64,000 bases of DNA from Agroathelia rolfsii. Lineage: Eukaryota; Basidiomycota; Agaricomycetes; Amylocorticiales; Amylocorticiaceae. Below are positions 1,103 to 63,247 of the stretch, one piece after another. The position numbers were made by a program, and so were the translations under genes. The stretch's first letter is position 1; every line of letters begins with the position of its first letter. The stretch lies in NCBI GenBank assembly GCA_018343915.1, contig JABRWF010000003.1, positions 1,736,001 through 1,800,000 on the forward strand. The letters run 5' to 3'. The notes beneath the pieces were generated by a model. That model was not told where the DNA came from, made no database searches, and was given only the letters and a program-made list of their open reading frames with translations.

Positions 1103-4100
1103 TCAGCAACAAATTCCCAACATTTCCTTCAATGATTTGTAAGCAGGGCCAGGAAGGGCCTTTGTCAGGATATCGGCACGATTGATCTTGCTTGGCGTAT
1201 ATGTGATGTTGATGACGCAGTTGGTGATTTGTTCGCAAATGAAATGATAGTAAATATCAATATGCTTGGCACGTGAGTAGTGGACAGTGTTATGGGCAAG
1301 CTGGTTAGTGGCAGTGTTATTGGCAAAAATAGTAATGGGCTTGGTCGGTTTAGCTCCGATTGCTTGTAAGAACGTGACGACCCAGGCAGCGTGACGTCCA
1401 GTGCTGCTGAGGGCCATGTATTCGGCTTCCATGGTTGACAGAGCCACGGAAGGTTGTTTCTTGGAGGACCATGAGACCGGGCCGCCGCAGAGTAAGAAGA
1501 CAAAACCGGTAACAGACCGGCGGTCGGTGATGTTGGAAGCCTAGTCGGCGTCTGAGTAAGCAACGACATTCAGCTTGGTGGGGGTATGAGAATATGTGAT
1601 GCCGTCGTCGATAGTGCCTTGTAGGTATCTGAAAATGCGTTTCACGGCATTCCAGTAAGCGTTCGTTGGCCTTGAGTTGAACTGAGAGAGGTGTTGCACG
1701 ACAAATGAGATATCCGGCCGGGTAAGGATGGCCAGATAGAGTAATGCGCCGATAGCAGACTGGTAAGGTGCTTGAGTGATGGTTGCGCCATCGGCGGCTT
1801 TAGCAAGTTTCACGTTAGGTTCCGCGGGTATGTTGAGTGGGAATGATGTAGTCATGTAATATTTCTTGAGTATGGATCTTGTGTAAGCACCCTGCGACAG
1901 GGTGAGCTTCCGCGCGGACCGGTCCCTAGTGACCTCAATGCCGAGAATGTGCCGGACCTGCCCAAGGTCGGTTGTCTCAAATTTGCTGGCTATAGCTGCC
2001 TTAGTTGCACCAAGTAGCTTGGCTGAGTCAGCAAAAATGACCATGTCATCCACGTACATAGAAATAATGACAAGCTGCGTGCTGCATGTCCTGACATACA
2101 CACAGGGGTCAGCTGCTATAGGAGTGAATCCGAGTCCAATAAGTGCCTTATTTAGATTGGTGTTCCAGACCCTACCGGCCTGCTTAAGTCCATATATCGC
2201 CCGATCCATCTTCCAAACACGTCCAGACCCATCGTTGAATCCCTCCGGCTGCTCCATATAGATATCATCCTCCAGCTTCCCACTTAGGTAAGCACCAACT
2301 ACATCCATCTGATGAATTTCCATATCCCTCTCCGCCGCCATTGCAAACAACATTTGTAGTGAATTGTGACAAACCACAGGAGCAAACATCTCCTTATAGT
2401 CAATGCCAGGCTTCTGCTCAAAACCACATGCAACAAGTCAAGCCTTGTACTTGACAATGTTCCTCTTTTCATCCCTTTTGATCTTGTAGACCCATTTGGA
2501 AGTGAGTGCTCGGCGTCCGGCCGGAAGACCTACAAGTTTGAATGTTCTCCTATCCACCAACTAACCCATTTCCCAATCCATTGCCCCTTTCCACTTTTTG
2601 GCGTCCCTGCTTCTGTTAGCTTCAGACTACGTCCTTGGCTCCTTCTGTCCCTCCATAATTCCAAACACGTAAGCGAAATGAATGTCATGGTGAGTTTCTT
2701 CTGCAGGTGCGTCCGAGCTGCCTTCTTTGGCTTTCTCCTTTTTGGCAAGGCGCTGGGATTGGCGTAATTTTCTGGGTTTGATTTTGATAGATAGTTTCTC
2801 ATTTTGGGAATTTTCATCTCCTTCATCGTCGTCTTCATCATCTCCTTCATTGCCGTTATCTTCTGGCATCTCCTCTTCTTTGTCACAGCTTCCCTTTTTG
2901 TTGCTTTCTTCTTCATTCTCTTCCTTATCCTCATCCTCATCTTCACTAGCCTCCTTCTTTTTCTCCTCTTTTTCTTCTTTATCACAATTTCCATCATTGT
3001 CATCTTCTTCTTCCTCCTCCTCCTGTGACCATGTGTCTTCAATTGATATTTTCTTTGATGTTACAGGACCGGGTGACAATGTGACGTGATTATTTGGCAT
3101 AAATGTGACGTTGTGTGATGTGAGGATTTGGCATGACTGAGGTGACCAGTAACAATGTGCGAGTGATGTTTCAGAGAATCCGGTGAAAATAAATTCACGG
3201 GCTTTCGGTTCAAGTTTGTGACGCTTCTGGTCCGGAACATAGACCCAAATTTTTGAACCAAATGGGCGGATATGACTAATATTGGGCTTCTTTCCCCAAA
3301 AGGCTTCATGAGGTGTGATGGCGACTAACTTTCTGTGAGGGGCACGATTCTTAATATAGCATGCATAGGCCACGGCTTCTGGCCATAGTGAGACGCTGAC
3401 GTCAGCACCAAAAATCATGGCCCTTGCAGCTTCAACAAGTGTGCGGTTCATGCGCTCAGCAATACTATTTTGGAATGACAAATGCGGAGCCGTAGTCCCA
3501 ATTTGGATGCCCTCCTTCCGTAAATAGTCCTGTAACTCAGAGTTAATGTATTCTTTACCATTGTCTACTCTAAGTGTTTTTATCTGCTTTCCTGTTTGGG
3601 TTAGTAGAAACGCTTTGTAAGCCTGAACAAATTTAGGAGCATCAGATTTTTGGTCCGAAAAATATACCGTTGTGTGACGGGTTGTAGCATCAGTAAATAA
3701 AAAGAAATACCAGTATTTATTAATGCCAGTTACCCGGGCTGGTCCCCACACATCTAAAACCACAAGTTCCCCAATTTGGCGGATTTTTGTAGCTGTCTCC
3801 TTTGGGATATTCTTTACGTAACTCTTGGCTTGAATGCATGCTTCACACGCTGTTGATTCAGGTAATTTAGTAGTAACCTCAAATCCCGTGACCATGCCCT
3901 TCTGCTGTAAATATTGCAGTGCTGGGAAATTAATATGCCCAAGCGCCTGATGCCATTCAGCCCAGGACTGTTGCACCAGACCTTGCAGCTGTGCTTCAGT
4001 TTTAGGGCGGGTCATAGGGTAGGTCACAGGAGTGACACGCTGGGGTTCGACATGCATCTTGTAAAGGTGGCTGTCTAGCCGCTCACCTTGAATGATTGTT

Positions 4101-5206
4101 GTGTTGCTAGGTTTCTCGATGCCGTCCATTCGGCCATCTGTCAAATAAAATGATAAACCTGCCTTTTCCATCCGTCCCAAGGAAATAAGGTTGAATTTCA
4201 TGCTCGGCACATGTAAGACATCCTTAAGTGTGATTTCATATGCCTTGTCACTAACATGAGTAATGATGTTAATGCTACCAGTGCCTGCAACCTTTGCAGA
4301 ACCGGCACCTTTGATTTGCTTAATGTTTGATGTAGTGTAATTCCTAAAAAATGATTTGTCAAATGCTACATGCACGCTGGCGCCTGTGTCACCCAGCCAT
4401 AAATTCTTGTCCTTTTCACTGAGTAGGGCTTCTGCCATAATAGGAAATGACCTAGCCATGCCAGTGGCTGCGCCATTGTCCTTTTTCTTGCCCTTAGACC
4501 TACAAAATTTAGCAATATGACCCTTTTTACCACAATTAAAACATTCCACCGGTGCTTTTCCACTGTTTCGACCTCCAGTCTTACCTTTAAAAGCAAGTGT
4601 GGTCTTATTGGTTCCATGCCACGCCTAGAGCCAGTTATCTTCCTCGGCAATCTTAGACATCAGCTTCTCTGGATCTTTGTAATCCTCTCCTGATGCCGCT
4701 TTAATGAATAGCTCCCATGACTCTGGTAAAGCTGACATAAGTAAATAACAAAAATCTTCACCGGTCAACTGCTTGCTCATGAGCTGCAATTTATCTTGCC
4801 ATGCTTTGAATTTGTTAATAAATTCCTCAACGGACTCACCCTCCGAACAAAAGGTTTGGTACATTTTGCGTCTGAGTGTGAGTGCCGCATAATCACCCGT
4901 AGCCTGAAAACAATTTTTCAAAATATTCCAGGCCTGCATACCAGTTTCGGCCACAGCAAGGGTGCTGGCCACTTTCTCAGCCACATGCGATCGGATCACC
5001 CGAAGCACCTTCCACTGCTTCTTTTTCCAATCCTGGCATTCTTCATCCTTGCTCTCCTACGGTTCAGCAATTTCACCTTTTACATAACTAAGGAGCTCTA
5101 GCTCCTCAAGTACGTCTTCCATCTTCCATTTCCACGCACTATAGTTTTTGGCACCACAAAGGTGGTCCATACGGCCGAGATCGCTGGTGGAAGTGTCGTT
5201 TGACAT
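1103..5206 (-). pseudogene. Copia-2 gag-pol polyprotein with nonsense codons
   Basis: The frame starts at the ATG at 5206-5204 (MSNDTSTSDLG) and stays in one frame to the TGA at 1103. Gag lies at 5206-4560, a CCHC knuckle (CFNCGKKGHIAKFC) near 4545, protease DTGA near 4390, the integrase HHCC box and D,D,E triad at about 3990-3400, RT (QMDVVGAYL, YVDD) at about 2330-2040, and RNase H (EAEYMAL, KHIDIYYHF) at about 1560-1190. In-frame stops sit at about 5059, 4627, 2627, 2557, 2437 and 1541. Each is explained by C to T (CAG to TAG, CGA to TGA) or G to A (TGG to TAG). No frameshift was found. A long Asp/Glu-rich stretch lies between integrase and RT (about 3035-2800). Non-functional as it stands. 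Confidence 0.92.
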
Positions 5207-7920: not shown

Positions 7921-9482
7921 TGTCAGGGGTTGATCTTTTGAATTTTTCACTTCCTTTGATTTTTCATTATTTTATTTTATTTTATTTTGTGGATTAGTAT
8001 TTTGCTTACTATACTTGCAATTCTTCTTGGATCAAGATCTTACTTTTTAGGGTCTATTTGGTACTATTCCTTTACCTTATTTTCCATTCTGATCTTCTTA
8101 TCTCTTAGTTGATCTCCTTAGTTTTGCATTTTACCGTACATATCTTCATTTCTTCACTTTGTGGCTGATGTGGCTGCACTTTCATGCTCCTCTTCAATAT
8201 TGAGACTCAGCTACTATATAGTTCATGTATATACTTAAGGCTGGCTGTCCTAGAGAATGCTTCTCTAGTTCAGACCACTCTGTTCACCACTCAGTATTCT
8301 TTGCTCAATCCACTCTTTTACTTTCTTATGACTTAGTAATGATGATGCTAGCTTACTCTAGCTTATATTCTTTGTCTATGTACTCAGAAAAGACTATAGG
8401 CTCTAATAATTAGTAAGGGATAGGATATCCCAAAAGCCTGCTCTATTAGGGACATAGATATGTAAAGTTCTATAATGATTGGCATTTGTTAGCCCTTGCC
8501 AGGGGTATTCCCACTATGTTATATTTCTTAGTTTCCCACCACCTTTTTATTACTCCTTATTCCCCCCCCCTTTTATGGTTATTTAGTGTTAAGGCTCACA
8601 CTCTTGACTATCTAAATAACAGAGGTGACCCCTATCTATACTACAAATAGAACAATATACTGCTACTAGGTCCCAAAGGTGTACTCCAAGTCTAGAAGAC
8701 TTTCCACCAAAGGCTACTGTTGGCTAATGACTTGTTACTGCTTGCTTAGTAAAAAAGGGAGTGCTAAACACTCTGAGATGCTTAGATTCTTTCTTAGAGG
8801 GTAATAACTCTAAGTCACACTTTGCCCTAATTTATTAAGGGACTTAATATAGAGAGGGGGAGGCAGGCAATACAGCCTGTTCTATAGCTTGCTTAGGTCC
8901 TTATACAACCCTTAGGCTGATAAGGCATAAAGGGAGGGCAAGGGTGAGAGGGCTAGGATAATGAGCCTAAAGGCAAATATATTAGTAAATAGTAAAGAGA
9001 GATATACATACTTATTTACTTACTTAAAGGCAAAAAGTTGAAGCTAAGGCCTTCAGGGAGTGTTACAGGGTCCTTATATAAGTTTCAGGGGTGGTCTGTA
9101 CACTTCTGAATAGTCTGTATACAGAGACAGAAATAGAAAGGAATGCTAAATATAGTATAAATAGATGACTGAGCATAATAGTATAATTATTGCATCATCA
9201 GCTGATTGATCAAGAGTCTAGACTTGGAATGAACTAGAAGGGTCTAGACTCTGTTTACTCATAGGTACTAGTACAAAGGTATAATGATGGCCAGTTATAT
9301 AACTAAGTACTCTGTAACCAATTGTCCTAAGCTGTTTATTATGAATAAATAATATGTAGAAAGTCCAAGAAAAATGGTAAAAATACAAGAAAAATACAAG
9401 AAAATAAAGAAAGATTAGGAGAGTCTGGGTGTACCTATGACATTTGGAGTGGTTAGTCATAGCTTCTGGCCATGCCATGACA
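7921..9482. repeat. LTR-J solo LTR, split by a Gypsy-B solo LTR
   Basis: Starts TGTCAGGGG and ends CCATGACA, with TCTAA duplicated at 7916-7920 and 9483-9487. Removing the internal insertion leaves about 700 bp, matching the complete J copy at 28916-29609. Holds a poly-C run near 8564. Confidence 0.85.
8587..9442 (-). repeat. Gypsy-B-family solo LTR
   Basis: 856 bp, the same length as the Gypsy-B LTRs but decayed (TGTTAAGG start). The flanks are TTTAG and TTTGG. The uninterrupted J copy at 28916 has TTTGG at the same site, so the left duplication has suffered G to A. Confidence 0.9.
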
Positions 9483-11998: not shown

Positions 11999-12529
11999 TA
12001 ACCCTAGTTAAAACCCCAAGGAAGAAAGTAGTGAAGACACCTCTTCTGGAGAATATGAATCCTCTGACAAAGAAAATTCCACCTTTCTCCCTCCTTTTCC
12101 CTTTGCACAAGTATCCGCCCTTCCTACCCCTTTTACCCCATATGCACAATCTCCCATGGCTAAGCAACCCCAACCTCCTGCTCTAGTTACCAATGCGGAA
12201 CTATTGCAAATACTAGTGGTAAACTAAACTACTATAATACAATGGATCCAGAACCAACAAGGGTCCATAGCCAAACCAAAAGAAATCAAACATCCACTTC
12301 CCATATTTGATGGACAATGGATTAATTTTCACCTATTTGTTCAAAAGTTTCAGGCCTACCTCGAACTCAACCCTTAGGTATATGTAACCAAGAAAGAAAA
12401 GGTCAAGTATCTTTTAGGCTTGATGGTGAATAGTGCAATGGCATGGTCTAGCTTGTGGTATGATGAAATAAGATGTATAGAAGAAGGAACAAGGGTAGAG
12501 GGACTAGTGACATTTGTCAAAGTACTTTG
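11999..12529 (+). pseudogene. Gypsy-A#2 gag, first part
   Basis: An acidic, Pro-rich N-terminal part is followed by a gag-like core that includes MAWSSLWYDE. At least two stops interrupt it (TAA near 12226, TAG near 12376), both explained by CAA or CAG changing C to T. The frame is broken by Copia-1 at 12529 and resumes at 21614. No confident start codon. Confidence 0.75.
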
Positions 12530-13560
12530 TGTTGAAAGATTGAATATTTACAAGCTTCATATCTTTCCAATAATTCCAATGAATACTTCAAATAATCATC
12601 TAACATCATATCATACATGATTATTTATTTCATGATTTTACAACCGTTCATTGTTGAGATATTAACAATTCTTTACATGCATATATTCATTGAAATAATA
12701 TGCATATATTCTTTTATTTAATATTTTCAATATTTCATTAAATCTAATCTTATCAGAGATAAGATTATCATATCTGAAGTCACTTGACTTTATCATTTAT
12801 GAATATCTTTTTCATAAATATTAAACAATTCCATTTAAATATTCATTTCTCAATAATCATTGTGAATATTACTAATTGATTTTTCATGCCCTAGATCCTT
12901 GCTTATAAATCACCAAAATATTTACTAAGCAAGTTCATAATATTAGTAATATTTATAAAATATTACTAATACAGATCTAATAATAGGATATTGAGATCAA
13001 TAGACATTTTACTTACTAATACTATACAAATTACTTACTAAGCACACAGATTGCTTACCAAGCGTATTATTCAGCAAATAGGAATATTACTAAGCTGATT
13101 TATAAGCTGATTTGTAAGCAACCTTCTTACTAAGCGGATTAGATAAGCACAGGATTGGCTTACTAATCTTGTAGAAATTAGAATATTTTGTATTATATAA
13201 GCACCAGCAAATTCGGCTGGAAATGACAAGTTATTTCACTCGAAAATAGTGAGTTAAATAGTCTACAAGACTAGCTCCTAGAGTACTAACTTCACCCTAG
13301 ACTTACAAAGTCTACAAGACAAGACAACAAGCCTTTCCTAAAGGGAAACAAGTAGGTAGTCTCAAAGGGACACCGGCTACAGTCTTATCTTAAGTATAGC
13401 ATAGTTACTAACCGCTTCCTACCTAGGAAACTTTGCCTATTCTTAGGAAACCACCCAAGCCTGCACTTTTCTCTACAAGTAAGTGTTTGCTTCACAACAG
13501 GTAACTTGTGAGCTAGCATATAGCCACACTATACAACCCAAGAACTACGATAGTTCAACA
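12530..13560 (+). repeat. Copia-1 5' LTR
   Basis: 1,031 bp, TGTTGAAAG...GTTCAACA. It carries a TATA box and, 83 bp before its end, a GTAAGT splice donor. Confidence 0.97.
13194..13201 (+). promoter_or_regulatory. TATA box of the Copia-1 LTR
   Basis: TATATAAG, repeated in the 3' LTR at 21242. It implies transcription starting near 13225-13235, about 250 nt before the splice donor. The only ATG between the TATA box and the donor is near 13227, opening just eight codons. Confidence 0.6.
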
Positions 13561-15134
13561 GGTTATGAGCCCTGCCTAAAAAGGCAGTCAGTATAAAACA
13601 GGAGTAGCTAACTAAATAATTCCCTTTTCTAGTGTCTTTCCAATCCAACACTGCCTCTTTCAACCTTGTTATTGCCCAGGCAATCAATTCTGCCAATCAG
13701 GTTGCTATCGCAGAAACCCTTGATCAGCAGATCATCGAGGATCAAGAGATCGACCATCAGTGGCTTCTAGATCTCAACAGTAAGCACAGATAAGGAAATA
13801 CTAAATTAGGAAACTGATATATCTTCCTAATCAGGCTACCCATCGCCCTCCAGCCCCTCTATCAAATCAGAAGACCTAGAGGAGGTCCCAAGCCTAGTAA
13901 CTACAGGCAACTACAAAGAGGAGGAAAACCTTGAAGACATCAACAAGGAGATTACCCAGTTTACCACTGAAGAAGAATTCCAGTGGATTGACTATCAAGC
14001 TTTCACCAATAGCTTCGAAGACATAAGAAGAGAATCCCCCTCCACATACATTTCTATCCTAACAGATCTTGAAATTCAAAACAAGTGGAAGTGTATAGAA
14101 AGCGTTAGGGATTACATCACAAGAGAAATCACAGAGCAACAAGACGTCTGGTGCAGACACTTCAACATCCCATCGACAGGACCCTGTTGGACAATCAAGG
14201 ATATTTTTGAGGAAGCAGCAAGATACAACCCAGAGGAGGAATACATCTATCCAGACCCCCTCACTCTCACTTCCTCAGATTTAGAACTATCTACACCATC
14301 ATCGGTTTCTGAACCAGTAAGCAAACTAAAATTAATTTTAGTAGAAGCTTATTGACACAGAAAAATATACACAGCTCTCCCCAATCTCTTCATCTTCATC
14401 TTCATTAGAGGAAGGAGAAATCAGAAGCCCTAAGGACAAGTCAGTTAAAGACGTCCAGGTGAATCTTATCAAATTTATTAAATCCTCCTCATTCAAATCC
14501 TTATACCAGGAACTTAAACAGTTACCTGAGTTCAACGTTGACGATACAGAAACTTGGGGATCCAGTCAGTCTAGACCATACACACCTTGGTCAGTAGGCA
14601 ATAGAGAGCTCAACGACTGGGCAAAAGAAGAAATTACTCCCAAGGCTATAGACTCATCGTCATCCACACAAGGTATTTAATTACCATACATCACAATCAA
14701 CTAGATAAGCTAACCAAGCTTTAGTTGAACAAGAATCCCTCCTTCAGTTTGCATTTAAGACTGTAAACGTTCTTGAAGCAACAGTCAAGCACCAGTCAGC
14801 CCAACTTTCCTGGTACAAAAGTTCCCTGGAAGACCTTACCAAGGAATTACAAGGACTCTCATACTCCTTAGGTTGGAACCAGGAGATCCAGAAAGGAGTA
14901 GCTGCAAAGGCAGAAGAAGAAAGGAAGGAGATTCGTCGATTGATTAATCATCAGGCAGGTAGACTCTTCGAGATCGATTACCACCAGAGGGATTTCAACA
15001 AGAAGTACACTGGTGAGCTAAAAGAATTCAAGGATCGATTCGAGGCCCAGACTAGGAAAATCCTAGAAAACCAAACTGGAACGTCTCACAGAGGTGGTAG
15101 AAGGCTTACAAGTAACAGATTCACCCCTTATTAG
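13478..15134 (+). CDS. Copia-1 ORF1: spliced leader protein of unknown function (predicted 445 aa)
   Basis: Predicted exons: 13478 (last base of the LTR exon), 13633-13779, 13835-14316, 14375-14672 and 14725-15134. The total is 1,338 nt, an exact multiple of three. No exon begins with an ATG. The start is formed when A at 13478 is spliced to TG at 13633, giving MSFQSN. Donors are GTAAGT, GTAAGC, GTAAGC and GTATTT; GCTAAC branch sites precede the first and last acceptors. The protein is acidic and Glu-rich, with a probable helical or coiled-coil C-terminal part containing the stretch GELKEFKDRFEAQTRKIL. I recognise no family. Copia-1b keeps the same donor, acceptor and exon order (33018-35390), so the gene belongs to the family. 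The intron model is inference from consensus and frame. Confidence 0.65.
13479..13632 (+). other. Leader intron spanning the LTR end and primer site
   Basis: 154 nt: GTAAGT donor in U5, branch GCTAAC at 13607-13612, acceptor TTTTCTAG. It contains the whole primer-binding site, so spliced RNA cannot be reverse transcribed. Copia-1b has the matching donor at 32864 and acceptor ending at 33017. Confidence 0.65.
13561..13576 (+). other. Copia-1 primer-binding site (initiator tRNA-Met, internal)
   Basis: GGTTATGAGCCCTGCC directly abuts the LTR. The first 15 nt are complementary to the anticodon arm of yeast initiator tRNA-Met as I recall it (GCAGGGCTCATAACC). Confidence 0.85.
14673..14724 (+). 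other. ORF1 last intron, precisely absent in Copia-1b
   Basis: 52 nt, GTATTT donor, branch GCTAAC at 14709-14714, acceptor CTTTAG. The Copia-1b sequence runs straight through at 34977/34978 (ATATAAG then TTGAATC), exactly as the spliced product would. Confidence 0.8.
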
Positions 15135-15324
15135 AAGTCTTATACTTTTAGTACTACAAGTCCTACTAGTACTAGAAAAATCTTTACGCTTCAGTCTTTA
15201 CCTCTTCTTTTATATTTTTGTCTTGAGCCTTGAATTTTTATACAACCTTATATCTGCCATTTCAAGTTTCATTGCATCAATCATTTCACTTATTTTTGAA
15301 TTTTGTGCAACTGTACTTTTGTGA
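15094..15324 (+). CDS. Copia-1 +1-frame membrane-protein-like ORF
   Basis: This frame lies +1 to the end of ORF1, is open from 15067 and ends at TGA 15322. Its product would continue a helical pattern (KLERLTEVVEGLQ) and then be strongly hydrophobic for about 60 residues, enough for two or three membrane spans. No ATG opens it, so it would need a +1 shift within 15067-15131 or alternative splicing. In Copia-1b the last 58 codons align without gaps (ending at TGA 35575). By hand about 14 of 23 changed codons are synonymous, which indicates that the frame was translated. It is not recognisably an envelope protein: no signal peptide and no known family. Confidence 0.5.
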   Translation: MVEGLQVTDSPLIRSLILLVLQVLLVLEKSLRFSLYLFFYIFVLSLEFLYNLISAISSFIASIISLIFEFCATVLL

Positions 15325-15473
15325 AAGTAGCCAAGTCTTAGCTACCACAAAAATCAAACATTGTATTTGTGATTCTTTGATTTTCAATAAGCCCAACATA
15401 AGTCTACTAAGGATTTTTATTTTCATACTAAGAATTCTTCAGGTATACTATAAACTTAAAAACAGGCAAAATA

Positions 15474-16205
15474 TTGGCATCAGAGAAAACACAATATCAC
15501 CACAACTCTACAGGTGAAGAATCACCTCAAACTCAAATTCCACTTGAGTTTGAAGAAATCACTCCTCCTAAGAAATTAAGTAAAACTTCACTTAAATACT
15601 TAGCAAAGAGGAACAAAAAGAAACTTCGAAGAGAAGGGCATATCACCCTTAAATCTCATTGGGAAACATATCACAAAGATTTCCCTACACCATCCAGAAA
15701 CCCAGAATTATACCTGGAAATAAAGAAATTCCTATTCGACAGTACCAAATATAATTGGGAAAAAGTCAGTCAGGATTTCCAGAATAAATTCTTCACTCTC
15801 TGTGCAGAAAGAATAATTCTTGCAAGAGTATTCGGAAGATTTGACAAAGTCGAACCCTTCACATTTCCAGACGAAGAAGTAAGAGGAAACTCTCAAAACC
15901 ATACAAGGTATCTTATCAAAATCACTCCAACGCCTCATAATTGGAGTATACCATACTTCACACCGGAGGAAATTGAAGACAAAGTTAGTCTTACAGATAT
16001 AGAGAGATTAGACGATATAATCTACCTCTATAATTCAGGACATTGGGATAGCATACATCCAGGTCCAAACCTTAAAGACTTTAAGGAATTCCTAGAAAAT
16101 CATCACAAGGAATACCTTGAAACAAGCCTCAACAGGATCATAGAAAATTATAGCATATATCTATATCCTATCGAAGACAGCTTTATATCCTGGGAATTTG
16201 TATAA
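15474..16205 (+). CDS. Copia-1 ORF2: unknown protein directly upstream of gag-pol
   Basis: About 243 codons ending in TAA at 16203. The frame contains no ATG; 15474 is a TTG, and the frame is open back to about 15431, so the N-terminus must come from splicing or a fusion not resolved here. The product is Lys-rich near its start (KYLAKRNKKKLRR) and Asp/Glu-rich later. No family recognised. It is in the same frame as gag-pol, separated only by TAA and two codons. Copia-1b keeps the same arrangement (TAA at 37364, ATG at 37370). Possible routes are stop readthrough, re-initiation, or a product made from another spliced RNA. Confidence 0.55.
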   Translation: MASEKTQYHHNSTGEESPQTQIPLEFEEITPPKKLSKTSLKYLAKRNKKKLRREGHITLKSHWETYHKDFPTPSRNPELYLEIKKFLFDSTKYNWEKVSQDFQNKFFTLCAERIILARVFGRFDKVEPFTFPDEEVRGNSQNHTRYLIKITPTPHNWSIPYFTPEEIEDKVSLTDIERLDDIIYLYNSGHWDSIHPGPNLKDFKEFLENHHKEYLETSLNRIIENYSIYLYPIEDSFISWEFV

Positions 16206-16211
16206 GTCAAA

Positions 16212-19200
16212 ATGACTGAAATACTTATAAAAGATATACCCTCAGGATTTCCTGTTTTCAACGGTTCAAATTGGGCCAAATTCTCAGTTAAATTTTATTT
16301 CCTAGCCAAGTCATTGCGCATTTGGACAATGTTCTCTAAAGGATTACCTAAGGATGATCCTACTCCCTTACAAAAACCAGATCTCAAGCCAGCAGAAATT
16401 CTACCACAAGAATTAGCTTCAGCTGCAGGGATTTCTTGGGGAGAAGACAAAAAAATCATTCTAGCTAATGCATGGGATCAAGCAGATGATCGTGCAAAGG
16501 GTTTACTTGGAGGATGTGTAAATGAAACTTGGGCAAATATTTTAATGGCTGAAGAAACAGCTGCTAAAATGTGGAATAAAATTTATACAGCGGCAAAAGC
16601 TCAAAGACTTGCAGAAGGTCAAAGATATCATACTGAGTTCTACTCCTACAGACTCAGGACTGATAAATCAATGGCTACACAAATCTCAGAAATGCAAGAA
16701 ATACAGACAAGAGCCAATGCTACAGGATTATCTATTGGAGAAAAAGATTTCATCTCACGCATAGGAGAAATACTTCCAGATTCATACCGCATGATTTGGG
16801 GTAGTATTCTAAGAGCAGTGGGAGGTTACGAGAAGGCCACAATAGACTTAATCCGGGGAGAATTGCAGCAGGAACAAACCATACGTGAATCTCTCCACAC
16901 TAATAATAAATCTCAAAGCAGGTCCAATATGTCTAAAGGCCAAAGAAAATTCAAAAAGAAATTTAAAGGTCAAGACAAAACAAATAGTCAGGAGTCAGAT
17001 AACAAAAACTATTGCAAAAAGTGCAAAAAGTATGTTAAACATACTACTGACAAACACATAGACAATTGGAAACCTCTTAATCGAAAAAATACAGGAAAGA
17101 AAAACTATGGTGGAAAATCCAAAACAAATCAAAGAACAGAAGAAGTTGAAGGCTCTTCCGATGAAGGAATAAATACTTCACTCTCTCTGTATCAAACAGA
17201 AAAAACACAGGATGATGAATTCTTTTACCTAGTTGATTCAGGTACTAGCCATCACTCCACATTTGATTTAAAGGATTTTCACCAGTACAAACCATTTCCT
17301 CCTGAAAAACAAAAATACACAATCATCTCAGATGGCACCAGACTCCCAATTAAAGGGATAGGTACTGTCAAAATCAAACACATTGATTCCAGTGGGAGAA
17401 TACATGTACTCGACATTACAAATGTCAGGTATATTCCAGACACTAGAGAAAGATTACTATCCCCTCAACAAATTTCACAAAAAACAAATGGGATATGGAT
17501 CATTGGAAAATCTGGAAAAACCATGGAATTAATGATCAACAAAAAAAAGATTCTAAGCGCATACATCAACCTAAACAATAATTTTGAGTTTAGAGGATCA
17601 ATCACACAAAGTCAACATGCAAAATCTTTGCATAGCTCAGAAGAAACACCCTATGAATTAATTCATCAAAGATTTGCACACTCAGGTAGTGATGTTATCC
17701 ATAAAATCTTAGGAAACACCATAGGTGGACCTAAAAATATAGGAAAGACATCTTATGAAACCTGTGAAGGTTGTGCACTAGGGAAATCTATCAGAGCACC
17801 ACATTTTCCATCTCCAGAGCGTACTAAAAACCCAAATGATTTGGTACACTCAGACTTATACTCACTTCCAGTAAATGCCATCCGGAGTAACATAAAATAT
17901 GTTGTGACATTCCTAGATGATGCCACTTCATATTGCACAATGTACTTCATATCATCAAAAGATGAAACCCTTGAAGTATTTAAAAAATATGTTACATGGT
18001 CAGAAAGGCAATCTGGAAATAAGTTAAAAACTATCAGATCAGATAGAGGTGGAGAATATATGTCAAAAGATTTTGACAAATTTCTCAATGACTTTGGTAT
18101 TTCTAGAGAAACTTCTATTCCGCATACACACCAACAAAATGGCAGAGCAGAAAGAGTTCAACGAACCATCCATGAAAAAGCTGAAGCCATTAGGAAAACT
18201 GCTGGAATGAAAGAAGGATTTTGGAAAATATCCATGGAAGCGGCACTATACACCTATAACCGTACACCTACCAGAGTTCAATCCTGGAAAACTCCATATG
18301 AATCTTGGTATAGAAAACAACCAGATATATCAAGGATACGGGTATTTGGATGCCAGGCATGGATGACTATTCCAAAGGAAGGTAGAAAAAATAAACTTTC
18401 AGACAAAGCCAGAAAAACAATTTTCATAGGATATCCAGAAGGTTCCAAAGGTTGGAGACTTTATGATCCAATTACTGGAAAGATATGGGATTCATACGAT
18501 GTTAAGTTCGATGAACACATATTTCCTATGAAAGAAAAGAAAAAGGCTCAATATATGCTACCTCAAAACAATGAGGCAGATATATCAGGTTCTGAAACTA
18601 CCTCAGAAAAAATACTTTATCCTCGAAAACAAAATGAATACATAGACATAGGAAATATAACAAACCCTATCTCTACAACAGATGAAGAAGAAGATATTTC
18701 ATATCTTGAAGAGTTAAGAGATACTGAAATACGTGACGAAGAGCTAGAGCCAGATAGTATTTCTGGAGCACTTGGAAGAACAGGCAGATTTGGACCACTT
18801 GGAGATTTTTCTGAAGAATATTTCCCAGGTGAATCCCAAACACCAGAAGCAAACATAGATCCTGGAGAAACAAGTCGACCTAGAAGAGAAAAGAGACCTA
18901 ATCCCAGATATAAAGACTATGTCACTTCAAGCCAAATCGAACCAGTTCAACCAACTATAAATCATCTGCTAACATTGGCTGCAGACGTCGAAAATATTCC
19001 CAGAACATATAAACAAGCAATGAATTCACCTGACCATGAAAAATGGGAAGAAGCTATGAAAAAAGAAATGGATTCATTAAAATCTAGGGATGTTTACGAT
19101 CTGGTTAATAGACCCAAAAACAAGACAATCCTCAAAGGAAAATGGGTTCTAAATATTAAATCAGATGGACGTTACAAAGCTAGATATGTTGCTAGAGGAG

Positions 19201-20558
19201 ATTTACAAACAAATGATACATTCGATGACACTTGGTCACCAGTCGCAAGATATGAGGCATTCAGAGTTTTACTTGCAATTGCCACATATAGTGATTGGGA
19301 AATTGACCAAATGGATGTTACCACTGCATACCTTTATGGAAAACTTAACCATGAGATTTACATGGAACAACCTACAGGTTTTTCAGTCAAAGGAAAAGAA
19401 GATCAAGTCTGCAAGCTTAAAAAATCCCTCTATGGATTAAAACAAGCAGGCAGACAGTGGAATTTTGAAATACATTCAACACTTGAAAAAATGAATTTCA
19501 AAAGAACACACTCAGATGCAGGTATCTACATAAACCATCAACAAGTGGGAGACCCAAATGATAAAATCATTCTCATTTTATATGTTGATGATTTATTAAT
19601 CATGGGAAAAGTGAAAAAGCAAATTCAAGACTTTAAGAAAAAACTCATGGAAAAATATGAAATGAAAGATCTTGGAGAAGCTAAATCATTCCTAGGCGTC
19701 AATATCAATAGAAACAGGAAAAAGAAATTACTGTCTATTGATCAAAAAGATTACTGTGAAGGTATTCTAAAGAAATTCCAAAAAGAAAAATCAAAAGGAT
19801 ATTCTACACCGATGTCAGCAAGCATCCAACTCAAATCTAACCCTAACCAAGTGACAGAGGCCAATAAAACCCACTACAAAAGCATGATTGGTTCACTCAC
19901 ATTCTTAACCATCATAACTAGGCCAGACATCACTTTTGCTGTAAACAAATGTGCGAAGTACAGTGAAAATCCTGGAAAAGAGCATTTCACTGCAGTAAAT
20001 CATATATTCCAATACCTATCCAAAACCCCGGATAAAGCCATTGTCTATCAAGGACAACACCCAAAAGAATTAACCGCATATTCAGATGCAGATTGGGCAA
20101 TGGACTTAGATGACCGGAAATCTACAACTGGATACATTACCATGATGTGCAAAGGTGCAACTTCCTGGTCAACCAGAAGACAACACACCACTGCATTATC
20201 TAGTGTAGAAGCTGAATATATGGCTCTCACAGAAGCAGCAAAACAAGTTAAATGGTTACGGAAACTACTAAATGACATAGGTGAAGATATATCTAACCCA
20301 ACAACTATTTTTACAGATAATCAAGGAGCTATTAGCCTAGCCAATAACCCTAAACATGGTGGTAGAGGTACTAAACACATTGAAGTTAGGCATCACTTTA
20401 TCAGAGAAACAGTCTCCGATGGTACTGCTAGGACTGAGTATATTAATACTAACCAACAACTAGCAGATGTTTTAACCAAGCCTTTGGCAGAAACAAAGCA
20501 CAGCTATTTTTCAAATTTAGCTGGACTAACAAATGATCTTAGATGGTTAAAGCAATAA
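16212..20558 (+). CDS. Copia-1 Gag-Pol polyprotein (1,448 aa), intact
   Basis: Starts MTEILIKDIP after a short AT-rich gap. Residues ~1-240 form a UBN2-like gag. Near 268-282 lies a zinc-type motif of the unusual form CX2CX5HX4H (CKKCKKYVKHTTDKH) instead of a CCHC knuckle, inside a basic stretch. Protease DSGTS is near 342, the integrase HHCC box ~485-520, and the D,D,E triad ~546, ~609 and ~645. RT holds QMDVTTAYL near 1034 and YVDD near 1124. RNase H holds SDADW near 1288, EAEYMAL near 1333 and KHIEVRHHF near 1388. All catalytic residues are present and no stop or frameshift occurs. Gag and Pol share one frame, as in many Copia elements. The ATG lies ~2.7 kb into the unspliced RNA, so translation probably needs splicing or internal entry. 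Confidence 0.95.
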   Translation: MTEILIKDIPSGFPVFNGSNWAKFSVKFYFLAKSLRIWTMFSKGLPKDDPTPLQKPDLKPAEILPQELASAAGISWGEDKKIILANAWDQADDRAKGLLGGCVNETWANILMAEETAAKMWNKIYTAAKAQRLAEGQRYHTEFYSYRLRTDKSMATQISEMQEIQTRANATGLSIGEKDFISRIGEILPDSYRMIWGSILRAVGGYEKATIDLIRGELQQEQTIRESLHTNNKSQSRSNMSKGQRKFKKKFKGQDKTNSQESDNKNYCKKCKKYVKHTTDKHIDNWKPLNRKNTGKKNYGGKSKTNQRTEEVEGSSDEGINTSLSLYQTEKTQDDEFFYLVDSGTSHHSTFDLKDFHQYKPFPPEKQKYTIISDGTRLPIKGIGTVKIKHIDSSGRIHVLDITNVRYIPDTRERLLSPQQISQKTNGIWIIGKSGKTMELMINKKKILSAYINLNNNFEFRGSITQSQHAKSLHSSEETPYELIHQRFAHSGSDVIHKILGNTIGGPKNIGKTSYETCEGCALGKSIRAPHFPSPERTKNPNDLVHSDLYSLPVNAIRSNIKYVVTFLDDATSYCTMYFISSKDETLEVFKKYVTWSERQSGNKLKTIRSDRGGEYMSKDFDKFLNDFGISRETSIPHTHQQNGRAERVQRTIHEKAEAIRKTAGMKEGFWKISMEAALYTYNRTPTRVQSWKTPYESWYRKQPDISRIRVFGCQAWMTIPKEGRKNKLSDKARKTIFIGYPEGSKGWRLYDPITGKIWDSYDVKFDEHIFPMKEKKKAQYMLPQNNEADISGSETTSEKILYPRKQNEYIDIGNITNPISTTDEEEDISYLEELRDTEIRDEELEPDSISGALGRTGRFGPLGDFSEEYFPGESQTPEANIDPGETSRPRREKRPNPRYKDYVTSSQIEPVQPTINHLLTLAADVENIPRTYKQAMNSPDHEKWEEAMKKEMDSLKSRDVYDLVNRPKNKTILKGKWVLNIKSDGRYKARYVARGDLQTNDTFDDTWSPVARYEAFRVLLAIATYSDWEIDQMDVTTAYLYGKLNHEIYMEQPTGFSVKGKEDQVCKLKKSLYGLKQAGRQWNFEIHSTLEKMNFKRTHSDAGIYINHQQVGDPNDKIILILYVDDLLIMGKVKKQIQDFKKKLMEKYEMKDLGEAKSFLGVNINRNRKKKLLSIDQKDYCEGILKKFQKEKSKGYSTPMSASIQLKSNPNQVTEANKTHYKSMIGSLTFLTIITRPDITFAVNKCAKYSENPGKEHFTAVNHIFQYLSKTPDKAIVYQGQHPKELTAYSDADWAMDLDDRKSTTGYITMMCKGATSWSTRRQHTTALSSVEAEYMALTEAAKQVKWLRKLLNDIGEDISNPTTIFTDNQGAISLANNPKHGGRGTKHIEVRHHFIRETVSDGTARTEYINTNQQLADVLTKPLAETKHSYFSNLAGLTNDLRWLKQ

Positions 20559-20568
20559 AGCATTCATT

Positions 20569-20577
20569 GAGTGGGAG
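20569..20577 (+). other. Copia-1 polypurine tract
   Basis: GAGTGGGAG directly precedes the 3' LTR, where plus-strand DNA priming is expected. Confidence 0.7.
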
Positions 20578-21608
20578 TGTTGAAAGATTGAATATTTACA
20601 AGCTTCATATCTTTCCAATAATTCCAATGAATACTTCAAATAATCATCTAACATCATATCATACATGATTATTTATTTCATGATTTTACAACCGTTCATT
20701 GTTGAGATATTAACAATTCTTTACATGCATATATTCATTGAAATAATATGCATATATTCTTTTATTTAATATTTTCAATATTTCATTAAATCTAATCTTA
20801 TCAGAGATAAGATTATCATATCTGAAGTCACTTGACTTTATCATTTATGAATATCTTTTTCATAAATATTAAACAATTCCATTTAAATATTCATTTCTCA
20901 ATAATCATTGTGAATATTACTAATTGATTTTTCATGCCCTAGATCCTTGCTTATAAATCACCAAAATATTTACTAAGCAAGTTCATAATATTAGTAATAT
21001 TTATAAAATATTACTAATACAGATCTAATAATAGGATATTGAGATCAATAGACATTTTACTTACTAATACTATACAAATTACTTACTAAGCACACAGATT
21101 GCTTACCAAGCGTATTATTCAGCAAATAGGAATATTACTAAGCTGATTTATAAGCTGATTTGTAAGCAACCTTCTTACTAAGCGGATTAGATAAGCACAG
21201 GATTGGCTTACTAATCTTGTAGAAATTAGAATATTTTGTATTATATAAGCACCAGCAAATTCGGCTGGAAATGACAAGTTATTTCACTCGAAAATAGTGA
21301 GTTAAATAGTCTACAAGACTAGCTCCTAGAGTACTAACTTCACCCTAGACTTACAAAGTCTACAAGACAAGACAACAAGCCTTTCCTAAAGGGAAACAAG
21401 TAGGTAGTCTCAAAGGGACACCGGCTACAGTCTTATCTTAAGTATAGCATAGTTACTAACCGCTTCCTACCTAGGAAACTTTGCCTATTCTTAGGAAACC
21501 ACCCAAGCCTGCACTTTTCTCTACAAGTAAGTGTTTGCTTCACAACAGGTAACTTGTGAGCTAGCATATAGCCACACTATACAACCCAAGAACTACGATA
21601 GTTCAACA
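20578..21608 (+). repeat. Copia-1 3' LTR
   Basis: 1,031 bp, reading as identical to the 5' LTR. Followed by CTTTG, the target duplication. Confidence 0.97.
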
Positions 21609-21613
21609 CTTTG

Positions 21614-22341
21614 AAGCTTCAAAACATTATTTGGAGCTTTTAATGAAAAGATTGCAGCAAGAGACCAACTGCAAAACCTCAGGCAAGGGTCTACTTCTAC
21701 AAGGAATTTTGGGATGGTGTTTATGTTACTAGGAAGGAGAACAGGGTTATCTAATGATGACCTTAGAGAAAAATATCTAGAAAGAATAAACGTCAAACTC
21801 AGACATATTATTACGGGTTGGGATAGGGATACATCCACCCTTCAACTCCTCATGAGTATAGGACATAATGCCAAAGTCAACCTTATGAAGGAAGAAATAT
21901 TGTCCAATTGGAGATATTGGTACAACAATAACCCACAGGTAGATCTCCAAAGAAGTAATCCTAATACAATGGATATTTCAGTAACTATCTTGGGAGGGAA
22001 ACCCAAGTTATCAAAAAACCCATTTATAAGCACAGGATCTACTCGGCAATCCTCCCCATTGCAAGTAGCTGCAACACAAAATCAACCTGCTACAACATCA
22101 AATAACCCCTTCTGATGAAATGACATTGTGTGTTACAATTATCAAAAGAAGGGACATATTATATGGGATTGTCAAGGCCCTAAAGTAGATAGGGTTAAAA
22201 CCAATAACCCATTCCAAAAGGTAGCTACGGCTTTATCAACAATGCCAATGCCAACACCGGCAGTGGACAGCCAGAATTCCTCTACTATGACGCAGCAAGA
22301 CATGCTCAATATGCTGCAAGAACAGGGTTAGATGATTATGG
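21614..22341 (+). pseudogene. Gypsy-A#2 gag, second part
   Basis: Continues the gag broken at 12529 (conserved core, then a Gln/Pro-rich tail). The zinc knuckle reads CYNYQKKGHIIWDC: the second Cys of a CCHC knuckle has become Tyr, a G to A change. The frame is interrupted near 22113 (TGA) and ended by a Gypsy-B solo LTR at 22342. Confidence 0.8.
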
Positions 22342-23197
22342 TGTCAAGGCTCACGCTCTTGACTATCTAAACAACAGAGGTGACCCCTACTCACACCACA
22401 AACAGAACAATGTACCGCTACTAGGTCCCAAAGGTGTACTCCAAGTCTAGAAGACTTTCCACCAAAGGCTACTGTTGGCTAATGACTTGTTACTGCTTGC
22501 TTAGTAAAGAAGGGAGTGCTAAACACTCTGAGACGCTTAGATTCTTTCTTAGAGGGTAATAACCCTAAGTCACACTTTGCCCTGATTTATTAAGGGACTT
22601 GATATAGAGAGGGGGAGGCAGGCAATACAGCCTGTTCTATAGCTTGCTTAAGTCCTTATACAACCCCTAGGCTGACGAGGCACAAAGGGAGGGCAAGGGT
22701 GAGAGGGCTAGGACGATGAGCCTGAAGGCAAATGTATTAGTAAATAGTAAAGAGAGATGTACATGCTTATTTACTCACCTGAAGGCAAAAGGTCGAAGCT
22801 AAGGCCTTCAGGGAGTGTTACAGGGTCCTTATATAAGTTTCAGGGGTGGTCTGTGCACTTCTGAATGGTCTGTGCACAGAGACAGAAATAGAAAGGAATG
22901 CTAAACATAGTACAAATGGATGACTGAGCATGATGGTGCAATCATTGCATCATCAGCTGATTGATCAAGAGTCTAGACTTGGAATGAACTAGAAGGGTCT
23001 AGACTCTGTTTACTAATAGGTACTGGTACAAAGGTATAATAATGGCCGGTCATATAACTAAGTACTCTGTAACCAATTGTCCTAGGCGGTCTATTATGAA
23101 TAAATAATGTGTAGAAAGTCCAAGAAAAATCGTAAAAATACAAGAAAAATACAGGAAAATAAAGAAAAATTAGGAGAGTCTGGGTGTACCCATGACA
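22342..23197 (-). repeat. Gypsy-B solo LTR, young
   Basis: 856 bp with the perfect duplication TATGG (22337-22341, 23198-23202). It is nearly identical to the LTRs of intact Gypsy-B at 57025 and 63248, so it formed recently by LTR-LTR recombination. Confidence 0.95.
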
Positions 23198-23202
23198 TAT
23201 GG

Positions 23203-32122: not shown

Positions 32123-32945
32123 TATTGAAAGATATGTATATTTCAATATATTAAATCTTTCTAAATATTCCAATGAACACTTCAATAAATCAGTATATAT
32201 CTTATCTATCACTGTTATTTATTTCAAGAATTTAAAACTATTAGTTGTGAAGATATAAAGCAATTTGTTCATTTACTTTATTTTGAATATTTCCAAAATA
32301 TATTTATATTTCAATATTCATTTTAAATATCTTTTGTTTAAACAATTCACTTTACTTATTAATATACAATTGTGATTATAAATCAGCTTATAAATCACAC
32401 AAATAAATTAGTAATCACCTTTAAAGATATTAGTAATATTTGAGATATATTATTAATATCACTTTCCTATTCATTCAAATATTTAATTTGCTTACAAATA
32501 CTATACTTAGCTTATAGAGCAGATTACTTAAGCAAAGACATTATTTACAAATCCTTTAGATATTAGAATATTTTGTAGTATATAAACCCTAGTAAAATCA
32601 GCTATAAAATATAAGTTATTTTCACTTAAAAATAGTGAGTTAAATAGTCTACAAGACTAGCTCCTAGGGTACTAACTTTACCCCAGACTTACCAAGTCTA
32701 CAAGATAAGAGAACAAGCCTTTCCCAAGGGAAAACAAGTAGGTAGTCTTAAAGAGACACTGGCTACAGTTTTGTCTTTAGTATAGCAGAGTTACTAATTG
32801 CTTCCTACCTAGGAAACTTTGTCTAGTCCTAGGAACAAATCTAAGCCTGCACTTTTCTCACAAGTAAGTGTTTGCTTTATAATAGGTAACTTGTGAGCTA
32901 GTATATAGCTACACTATACAACCCAAGAACTATAAAAGTTTAATA
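32123..32945 (+). repeat. Copia-1b 5' LTR
   Basis: 823 bp, TATTGAAAG...TTTAATA, preceded by TTTCC. Shorter and diverged from the 1,031-bp Copia-1 LTR, but keeps the GTAAGT donor at 32864. The primer site GGTTATGAGCCCTGCC follows at 32946. Confidence 0.88.
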
Positions 32946-33017
32946 GGTTATGAGCCCTGCCTAAATAGGCAACTTAGATAGATCAGGAGTAGCTAACCAA
33001 ATAATTCCCTTATCTAG

Positions 33018-42018: not shown

Positions 42019-43722
42019 TAGACTCTGCTTACTAACTAATGGAAACTGGTACAAGGGTATCATGATGGCCAGTCATGCAATCTAGTATTATGTGACCAAT
42101 TGTTCTTCAGAAATGTTCATAACAATAAATAAAGTGTAACAAATCAAGGAAAAATCATAAAAATACAAGAAAAATATGAAAATGTAGAGAAAAATCAGGA
42201 GAGTCTAGGTGTACCTATGATATATACTGTGGATATATTATGTATAATAGCCTCTACAGCATGATTTGTAGCTTGATAATAATAATAATAAATACTTGAG
42301 TAATTTCATGGTTATCTTGAGTGTATGCTGAATAAACCTGGGTATATGCTTGGTAAACCTGAATATATACTTGGTAGACATGATTAAATGCTATAGTGTC
42401 TATGGCATGGTATAACTATGGTTGTGACAGAGAGATTCTACCAAACATATATAGAATGATCTGGGAAAGCATTCTCAGAGTAGTAGGAGGATATGAAAAA
42501 GCTACAATTAACTTAGTCCATAGAGAACTCTAACAAGAACAAACTATAAGGGAATCTCTTTATATAGAAAAAACTTATAGTCAATCCCACATGTCTAAAG
42601 GCCAGCAAAAATTTAAAAGAAAATTCAAAGGTCAAGGTAAAACCCACAATCAGCAACAGCAAAGTAATAAAAACTATTGCAAAAAGTGTGGAAAATATGT
42701 CAAATATACTGAAGCTGAACATATGGATAATTGGAAACCTCTAAATTATCCTAATAAAGGAAAGAAACCTCAAAAGAGAAAATCCAAAATAAACCAATCA
42801 AGTAATGGTTATCAAGAGGATGACTTTTCAGACTTAGACATTACTGAATCCTAGTCTATGTCTCAATCTAAGAAAGTTTAAGAGGATGGATTCCATTGTC
42901 TTGTTGATTCTGGAACTAGTTACTACTCAACCTTTGATATCAAAGATTTCTTTTTGTATAAAATTTTCCTAGAAAATAAAATCAAATACACAATAATATC
43001 TGATGGTACTAAACTCCCAATTAAAGGAATAGGTATAGTCAAGATCAAACATATTGATTCCAGTGGAAAGATACATGTTCTAGATATCTCAAATGTGAGA
43101 TATATTCTAGATACTAAAGAAAGATTACTTTCACCTCAACAAATATCCCAAAAAACAAATGGATATTGGGTAATCAGACAATCTGGAAAGATCATGGAAT
43201 TAATCATCAATAAGAAAAAGATGCTAAGTGTATATATCAATCAAAATAACAATTTTGAGCTTAGAGAAAAAATTACTCAAAGCAAATATGCCATGTCTCT
43301 ACTCACTAAAGATAAAATGCCATATGATCTAATACACCAAAGATTTGCTCATACAAATAGAGATGCAATTTTGCATATACCATTAAGTACAATAGATGGA
43401 CTAAGTGATATTAGAGCTACTACTGAAGAAACTTGTGAAGGATGTGCAAAAGCAAAGTCAATTAGAGTATCTCACCCTCCATCTCTAGAGCATGCAATAT
43501 ATCCAAATGATATAGTTCACTCAGATGTTTACACATTACCAATAAATGCTATAAAAAGTAATATCAAATATGCTGTAGTCTTCCTAGATAATGCTACTTT
43601 ATATTATACAATGCATTTCTTATCATCAAAAGACCAAGTCTTTGAAGCATTTAAGAAATATATAAACTAGTCAGAAAGACAATCTGAAAGAAAGCTACAT
43701 ACATTCAGATCTGATAGAGGAG

Positions 43723-57024: not shown

Positions 57025-57880
57025 TGTCAAGGCTCACGCTCTTGACTATCTAAACAACAGAGGTGACCCCTACTCACACCACAAACAGAACAATGTACCG
57101 CTACTAGGTCCCAAAGGTGTACTCCAAGTCTAGAAGACTTTCCACCAAAGGCTACTGTTGGCTAATGACTTGTTACTGCTTGCTTAGTAAAGAAGGGAGT
57201 GCTAAACACTCTGAGACGCTTAGATTCTTTCTTAGAGGGTAATAACCCTAAGTCACACTTTGCCCTGATTTATTAAGGGACTTGATATAGAGAGGAGGAG
57301 GCAGGCAATATAGCCTGTTCTATGGCTTGCTTAGGTCCTTATACAACCCCTAGGCTGACGAGGCACAAAGGGAGGGCAAGGGTGAGAGGGCTAGGACGAT
57401 GAGCCTGAAGGCAAATGTATTAGTAAATAGTAAAGAGAGATGTACATGCTTATTTACTCACCTGAAGGCAAAAGGTCGAAGCTAAGGCCTTCAGGGAGTG
57501 TTACAGGGTCCTTATATAAGTTTCAGGGGTGGTCTGTGCACTTCTGAATGGTCTGTGCACAGAGACAGAAATAGAAAGGAATGCTAAACATAGTACAAAT
57601 GGATGACTGAGCATGATGGTGCAATCATTGCATCATCAGCTGATTGATCAAGAGTCTAGACTTGGAATGAACTAGAAGGGTCTAGACTCTGTTTACTAAT
57701 AGGTACTGGTACAAAGGTATAATGATGGCCAGTCATATAACTAAGTACTCTGTAACCAATTGTCCTAGGCGGTCTATTATGAATAAATAATGTGTAGAAA
57801 GTCCAAGAAAAATCGTAAAAATACAAGAAAAATACAGGAAAATAAAGAAAAATTAGGAGAGTCTGGGTGTACCCATGACA
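57025..57880 (-). repeat. Gypsy-B 3' LTR
   Basis: 856 bp, TGTCAAGG...CATGACA on the plus strand. The adjoining polypurine tract (AAAGGGGGTAA on the element strand) is at 57881-57891. Confidence 0.95.
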
Positions 57881-57891
57881 TTACCCCCTTT

Positions 57892-62753: not shown

Positions 62754-63247
62754 GATTGGATGTAGTGTTGGAGAGGAGGGGAGTGATTGGTGATCCTATG
62801 TGTGATAGTGGAGCTATAGCTCAACACTGTATAAATCCTTTGGTCTTCTTCTTCCTAAGGCTGCAAGCGGACAGCCTTCTAGTAGTGTAGTAAAGATACT
62901 ATCTACAAAAGCTCCTTATTTGTCAAAGCAGTTATACTCCCTTGTGAGGAGTCCCTAGAAGCAGCTGACTAACTCAGCAGTAACGCCTTCGGGTAACGGC
63001 CCACAATTTCCCAGGAATGTACTGGTACTTTTGCAGCTATGCCTTAACAGGTTGAAAGGACGTAATTAAGGTCCCCAATTGCTTCTGCTAACAGTTCGAT
63101 GACAAATAAGGCTCACAAGTGAAAGGTATAGTACTTGTATCTACAAAATCTTTTCCTTGCTTGTGCTGACTTGTAAGCGATTTATTTCTTACACAATCTT
63201 GGAGCTAAGGCTCTACAAGACTGGATCAGGTGTCAGCTTCGACCTGA
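62754..63247 (-). other. Gypsy-B untranslated leader
   Basis: About 490 bp between the 5' LTR and gag. Next to the LTR an inverted repeat ATCAGGT...ACCTGAT (63225-63248, 10-nt loop) could fold into a hairpin. No primer site starting TGG is visible, so tRNA use is unclear. Confidence 0.6.

Follow-up and report, generated by a model that had tools for sequence, protein, structure and literature searches.

A Copia-type element with two coding blocks ahead of Gag

The window, meaning the whole 64,000-nucleotide stretch of Agroathelia rolfsii DNA analysed here, contains a complete Copia-type element, Copia-1 (12530-21608), nested among other retroelements. Its TG...CA LTRs are identical and flanked on both sides by the short duplication CTTTG, a primer binding site follows directly 3' of the 5' LTR, and the Gag-Pol domains occur in the order Retrotran_gag_2, gag_pre-integrs, rve, SH3_retrovirus and RVT_2 (Pfam; the gag_pre-integrs match scored 26.9 bits, slightly below the cut-off of 28.4), identifying Copia-1 as a Ty1/copia-type LTR retrotransposon. 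Two extra coding blocks lie upstream of Gag, namely ORF1, with four exons within 13633-15134 plus a single LTR base, and ORF2. The features are listed below; L numbers denote stretches fetched from the genome, families A and B are introduced with the genomic copies, and a slash marks a splice junction.

12530..13560 (+): 5' LTR (TG...CA), identical to the 3' LTR; target-site duplication CTTTG at 12525-12529
13195..13202 (+): probable TATA box, TATATAAG, called from sequence
13479..13632 (+): intron 1, 154 nt; its removal brings A (13478) next to TG (13633-13634); opens with the donor GTAAGT, has a branch-like GCTAAC and closes with the acceptor TTTTCTAG
13561..13575 (+): primer binding site within intron 1; its 15 nt are the complement of part of the anticodon arm of a tRNA-Met encoded in the genome
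13565..13579 (+): five-triplet upstream ORF (uORF) ATG AGC CCT GCC TAA; its ATG pairs with the CAU anticodon and its frame closes after four codons
13633..16211 (+): start-codon-free stretch, 2579 nt, no ATG in any frame; covers exons, introns, spacer and ORF2
13633..13779 (+): ORF1 exon 2, opening with the TG of the split ATG
13780..13834 (+): ORF1 intron 2, 55 nt; exactly missing in L006, its family-B counterpart exactly missing in L028
13835..14316 (+): ORF1 exon 3, from the spliced reading frame
14317..14374 (+): ORF1 intron 3, 58 nt; lost from no copy, its boundaries deduced solely from frame and consensus
14375..14672 (+): ORF1 exon 4, from the spliced reading frame
14673..14724 (+): ORF1 intron 4, 52 nt; exactly missing in L005 and L010, its family-B counterpart missing in L024 and L028
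14725..15134 (+): ORF1 exon 5, SHRGG...TPY tail, then TAG
15432..16205 (+): ORF2, a Met-free stop-to-stop frame of 257 codons whose TAA is in frame with Gag-Pol
16212..20558 (+): Gag-Pol ORF, 1448 aa; copia-type gag, integrase, RVT_2
20578..21608 (+): 3' LTR; target-site duplication CTTTG at 21609-21613
32865..33017 (+): intron 1 of a second copy, Copia-1b, 153 nt; TCACAA/GTAAGT ... CTAG/TGTC; copy broken by insertions

Elsewhere, the window carries a second Copia element (1541-4624, minus strand), a Gag-Pol fragment of the Copia-1 kind (42882-43670, plus strand), a Ty3-like element with gag and pol (57892-62795, minus strand) and four copies, 93-99% identical, of a repeat of about 860 bp (8586-9447, 22341-23202, 57025-57882 and 63248-64000, the last clipped by the window end).

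Spliced ORF1 comprises the A of 13478 joined to 13633-13779, 13835-14316, 14375-14672 and 14725-15134, and encodes 445 amino acids with exactly one Met; read without splicing, it has no in-frame ATG and meets a stop in intron 2. Comparing the window with the family-B copy L017 on stop-to-stop pieces that include a few flanking codons gave a pS of 0.72 and a pN of 0.35 for exon 3 and values of 0.79 and 0.25 for exon 5, with exon 2 being less constrained (0.56 and 0.41). Judged by these substitution patterns, ORF1 is under protein constraint, with silent sites near saturation between families A and B. Searches with ORF1 and ORF2 returned no protein homologues at E 0.001, a weak test given a database in which fungi look thinly represented, as Gag-Pol itself found only 16 distant matches, the best at 29% identity over 92% of its length. 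Neither block had a Pfam match above cut-off, scans of viral and prokaryote contigs found no relative, and AlphaFold models were poor (mean pLDDT 49.2 for ORF2 and 50.2 for ORF1 exon 3).

At 16203-16214 the ORF2 TAA, the hexamer GTCAAA and the Gag ATG follow one another in one frame; copy L007 has a one-base shift at this boundary, so the shared frame is not universal. The spacer between ORF1 and ORF2 can fold into a hairpin (15317-15352) with the arms TTTTGTG...GTAGC and GCTAC...CACAAAA, changed on both sides in family B (GTAAC and GTTAC). We set it aside as a candidate signal, as its stability does not exceed that of shuffles (z -1.17); its motif did not turn up in the family-C loci searched.

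Predicted intron 1 splits a start codon and contains the primer binding site

Exon 1 ends with CTCTACAA (CTACAA) at 13478, inside the 5' LTR, followed immediately by the donor GTAAGT (13479-13484). A branch-like GCTAAC occupies 13608-13613, and the acceptor AG (13631-13632) precedes exon 2, which opens with TGTCTTTC at 13633, the acceptor TTTTCTAG/TGTCTTTC being situated 72 bp beyond the LTR. Joining the two sites produces an ATG in frame with the 445-codon ORF1, which contains no other Met. A donor in the 5' leader and an acceptor ahead of an accessory ORF resemble the accessory-gene anatomy of retroviruses. The first-pass annotation had described this donor after CTACAA and a branch-supported acceptor, and every letter and coordinate was correct; it had also stated that ORF1 is without a genomic ATG and that the junction supplies one in frame with 445 codons, which we reproduced, finding the junction Met to be the sole one. 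As it had further claimed, both sites are kept in Copia-1b, where the same arrangement was found at 32864/33018. Its central proposal, that ORF1 has a start codon only once its RNA is spliced, is supported at the level of sequence by the split A/TG in three families, and is also backed by the sole Met of the window ORF1 and the exact loss of other ORF1 introns from six copies. Beyond that account, our analysis contributes the ATG-free stretch up to Gag, the location of the primer site within intron 1 and the fossil record of splicing.

Two further donor-like sites occur in the LTR. The one at 13501 (CAACAG/GTAACT) gives no ATG when joined to the acceptor, and the one at 13249 (ATA/GTGAGT) would, in the window copy, make an ATG with this acceptor as well; family C reads ATC in place of this ATA, so no ATG would arise there. 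A single ATG at 13223, located 28 nt 3' of the probable TATA box, may or may not be transcribed.

The primer site matches three tRNA-Met genes of the genome, found by a pattern taken from the primer site itself (three matches); a pattern modelled on the tRNAs of other species had no match in the genome. By their loop features, we take these tRNAs to be of the initiator type. As the partner of a CAU anticodon, the primer site must contain an ATG, and this ATG, which opens the uORF, is the only one that unspliced RNA has from 13224 up to the Gag start. Because the primer site lies within intron 1, RNA without this intron cannot be primed at 13561-13575.

Genomic copies, splicing fossils and the ATG-free stretch

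We searched the source genome with DNA and Gag protein, listed the best-scored matches and fetched 39 stretches. Among the matches listed, 31 copies were readable across the acceptor, leaving out L037, which overlaps L001. The acceptor AG was kept in all 31 of these listed copies and the following TG in 30, L010 having TA in its place. An LTR lay directly upstream in 29 of the 31 (not in L013 and L014); within this listed set, the intron-1 region was present in 29 of 29, as is expected where unspliced RNA serves as the genome, and the GTAAGT donor in 27 of 29, preceded by A in every case (27/27). The remaining two, L004 and L028, have lost AAGT at the donor.

The copies fall into families A (the window element), B and C (L030). 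Against family A, L030 shows 55% identity for Gag, about 30% for ORF2 and 33-39% for ORF1. It reads ACACAA/GTAAGT ... TATTTAG/TGTCATCC, so that the junction is again ATG TCN; over intron 1, identity to family A is 57% for C and 74% for the B copy L029. As many copies are close kin and only the best-scored matches were listed, the 31 copies are not independent trials; on sequence comparison, the independent support for the split ATG is three families, all from one genome.

Several copies (L003, L005, L017, L018 and L022) combine A bodies with B-like LTRs, or B bodies with A-like LTRs, around the donor, which suggests LTR exchange between the two families. Seven of the matches listed lie within about 25 kb of contig ends (C1:574, C3:4461, C5:4297888 of 4299874, C6:3970, C7:8909, C2:13058 and C4:23045), perhaps reflecting subtelomeric targeting or survival. 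C-to-T changes exceed T-to-C changes relative to the family reference in L004, L007, L019, L020 and L028, a pattern like that of repeat-induced point mutation; L003 and L005 show no such excess.

Splicing of ORF1 has left traces in the copies themselves. Introns were removed exactly to the base seven times in six copies: in family A, L006 lacks intron 2 and L005 and L010 lack intron 4; in family B, L023 lacks intron 2b, L024 intron 4, and L028 both intron 2 and intron 4. Exact losses of this kind indicate that ORF1 RNA was spliced and that partly spliced RNA was copied back into DNA; read in this way, the copies record that introns 2, 2b and 4 underwent splicing and that partly spliced RNA was reverse-copied into the genome. 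Intron 3 was lost in none of 14 pairs scored (L037 repeats L001). All six copies retain the intron-1 region together with the primer site, and intron 1 was lost from none of the copies, including these six, as expected if it is needed for priming. A genome search for the family-A joined junction, allowing up to 3 mismatches, gave one match with 3 mismatches and no ATG, and hence no spliced copy. The family-B pattern gave 19 matches, each with 3 mismatches and again no spliced copy; judged by letters only, 12 are the unspliced acceptor CTAG/TGTCTTCC and 7 lie elsewhere.

From exon 2 to Gag, the window element contains no ATG compared with 23.2 expected from dinucleotide shuffles (minimum of 1000 shuffles, 11). 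By the same measure, family B contains none compared with 27.5 (L017) and 27.9 (L018), and the family-C copy 5 compared with 34.0. ATG has the lowest observed-to-expected ratio of all 64 triplets in A, L017 and C, and in L018 is tied at zero with the rare triplet GCG (expected 2.4). The antisense triplet CAT is only slightly low (47 versus 52.4 in A, 43 versus 52.4 and 46 versus 52.9 in B, and 39 versus 51.5 in C), and ATG is not depleted in Gag-Pol (103 versus 91). Out-of-frame ATGs, assessed by shuffling synonymous codons, number 0 versus 6.2 in ORF1 and 0 versus 1.5 in ORF2, the latter being within chance. As for methionines, ORF1 contains none internally, ORF2 contains none, and the 1448 residues of Gag-Pol include 32. 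Two other Copia copies (L034 and L035; 22% Gag identity) have no ORF above 200 codons within 2 kb ahead of their Gag ORF; they are not a matched control.

We surveyed ATGs between exon 2 and Gag in 16 copies, namely 15 collinear with the reference plus L030, a choice that followed an earlier look at the copies; L021, L023 and L024 fell outside the alignment, and insertion-broken or shortened copies were omitted. Seven of the 16 have no ATG (the window element, L001, L002, L003, L005, L017 and L018). The other nine carry one (L004, L006, L019), two (L029), three (L007, L028), four (L025) or five (L020, L030). Leaving L030 aside, the 20 ATGs of the eight A and B copies sit on ACG (11), GTG (4), ACA (4) or ATT (1) in the reference, which was the window or L017, both ATG-free. 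C-to-T changes abound in most of these copies, so that their ATGs look as if they had been acquired after insertion.

A proposed splicing switch and its relation to known systems

From the split A/TG, its conservation, the depletion of ATG and the splicing fossils, we infer translation and a choice between two RNAs, and we propose that Copia-1 uses a two-way splicing switch, a full model to which we assign a probability of roughly 0.7. Unspliced RNA would serve both as the genome and as the Gag-Pol mRNA, with ribosomes passing the five-triplet uORF and scanning an AUG-free leader of about 2.6 kb to the Gag AUG. Removal of intron 1 would create the ORF1 AUG, which would come first in the message provided that transcription starts 3' of 13223. 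An A at -3 makes for a good AUG context, and the junction AUG has this A, so that ribosomes would be expected to make ORF1. Removal of the intron would also delete the primer site, and spliced RNA would not be reverse-transcribed from that primer. The model requires unspliced RNA to carry no ORF1 start, since such an AUG would capture ribosomes meant for Gag-Pol; as unspliced RNA is nearly without start codons for about 2.6 kb, splicing would decide which protein is made from each RNA. It seems probable on balance, although by no means assured, that this single intron sets the fate of the RNA in full: its removal would make the start codon of the accessory protein or proteins, divert ribosomes from Gag-Pol and delete the primer site, its retention would leave the Gag-Pol AUG as the first to open a long ORF, and selection would have purged AUGs from the roughly 700 codons of ORF1 and ORF2.

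The weakest step concerns ORF2, which is without an evident start, no AG/TG able to make an ORF2 Met occurring in 15135-15800. AGs of phase 1, the phase of introns 2 and 4, lie near its beginning (15466, 15484, 15514 and 15520) and suggest fusion of ORF2 with the 5' exons of ORF1. That ORF2 shares the junction AUG in this way, through alternative phase-1 splicing, we advance tentatively, as a possibility that falls short of being probable.

Several observations count against the model. The family-C copy has five ATGs before Gag, the donors of L004 and L028 and the TG of L010 are lost, the 2.6-kb scan is long, and, should transcription begin farther upstream, the ATG at 13223 could come ahead of the ORF1 start.

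The alternative that survives best retains the split ATG as the ORF1 start and gives the desert another origin: Gag-Pol would have an RNA of its own, spliced or internally initiated, and ATGs would have been purged only to keep the ORF1 mRNA from yielding side products. Acceptor-like AGs do occur ahead of Gag, and the spacer hairpin, altered on both sides between A and B, could be a signal. Against this, the hairpin is unexceptional compared with shuffles (z -1.17), none of the family-C loci searched showed its motif, and the desert continues past the ORF1 stop, the spacer and ORF2 to end exactly at the Gag ATG, an extent that side products of ORF1 would not explain. We consider this alternative unlikely. 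IRES or shunting models, for their part, need no desert ending exactly at the Gag AUG.

A second alternative, to which we give little credence, has ORF1 starting at a non-AUG codon, the GTG at the position of the split ATG, in RNA that retains intron 1. The unspliced sequence does read CTA GTG TCT TTC, and the RNA that gave rise to L006 must have kept intron 1 while being without intron 2; the GTG, however, is forced by AG/TG and is no independent evidence, and the A before GTAAGT in 27 of 27 donors would go unexplained. That the junction is a coincidence, ORF1 being a decaying remnant whose A/TG was inherited without function by copies related through descent, is scarcely credible in view of protein constraint despite near-saturated silent sites, the site kept in family C at 57% intron identity, and the exact splicing fossils.

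The proposed splicing switch has partial counterparts elsewhere. In HTLV and foamy viruses the major donor lies upstream of the primer site, and spliced RNA serves other genes and loses that site; in Copia-1, likewise, unspliced RNA would be both the genome and the mRNA for structural genes, but the accessory genes lie before gag rather than 3' of pol. A start codon made at a splice junction is, to our knowledge, not the usual rule in such retroviruses. One splice choice, an alternative acceptor, makes the start codon of Epstein-Barr virus EBNA-LP, yet this is a DNA virus, without Gag-Pol or a coupled primer site. Drosophila copia uses an internal initiator-tRNA primer, a mode of priming that Copia-1 appears to share. 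Cellular genes whose start codon is interrupted by an intron are described as relatively rare (PMC1626468); they resemble Copia-1 in having a phase 1 or 2 intron in codon 1 and differ in that the Copia-1 intron would present a choice between two proteins.

The closest translational parallel is found in two groups of plant pararetroviruses, rice tungro bacilliform virus (RTBV) and the badnaviruses. According to PMC5902531, leaky scanning over 900 nt carries their ribosomes across ORFs I and II, which have no internal AUG, to ORF III; these upstream ORFs begin at an AUU or a moderate AUG that is present on that unspliced RNA, and RTBV makes P4 from spliced RNA in which a distal ORF is fused to a leader uORF. 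Copia-1 resembles them, as far as that account goes, in keeping long ORFs without internal AUG as far as the AUG of the polyprotein. It differs in that the ORF1 AUG is not on the unspliced RNA and in the length of the stretch (about 2.6 kb compared with 900 nt); with no AUG for its upstream ORFs on the same RNA, Copia-1 would work like RTBV without being a case of the RTBV system.

In the literature searched, which left most subscription journals outside, we found no report of an LTR retrotransposon whose start codon is made by splicing or whose AUG-free leader is comparably long, nor of the combination of splice-made start, AUG desert and primer site in the same intron. If the model is right, it would place a testable limit on the scanning distance of fungal ribosomes, and gene finders requiring a genomic ATG would miss proteins of this kind.

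Within Copia elements, the only splicing demonstrated as of 2013, according to PMC3735527, was that of Drosophila copia and barley BARE1, which yields a Gag-only RNA. Copia-1 shares with these elements, as there described, the Copia-type order and the use of splicing to separate RNA classes; unlike theirs, its splicing would provide an extra protein upstream of Gag together with its start codon. Retroelements must divide one transcript between protein making and genome copying, a balance that the BARE authors call a major question (PMC3735527), and one to which, if the proposed switch is true, Copia-1 would give its answer with a single intron.
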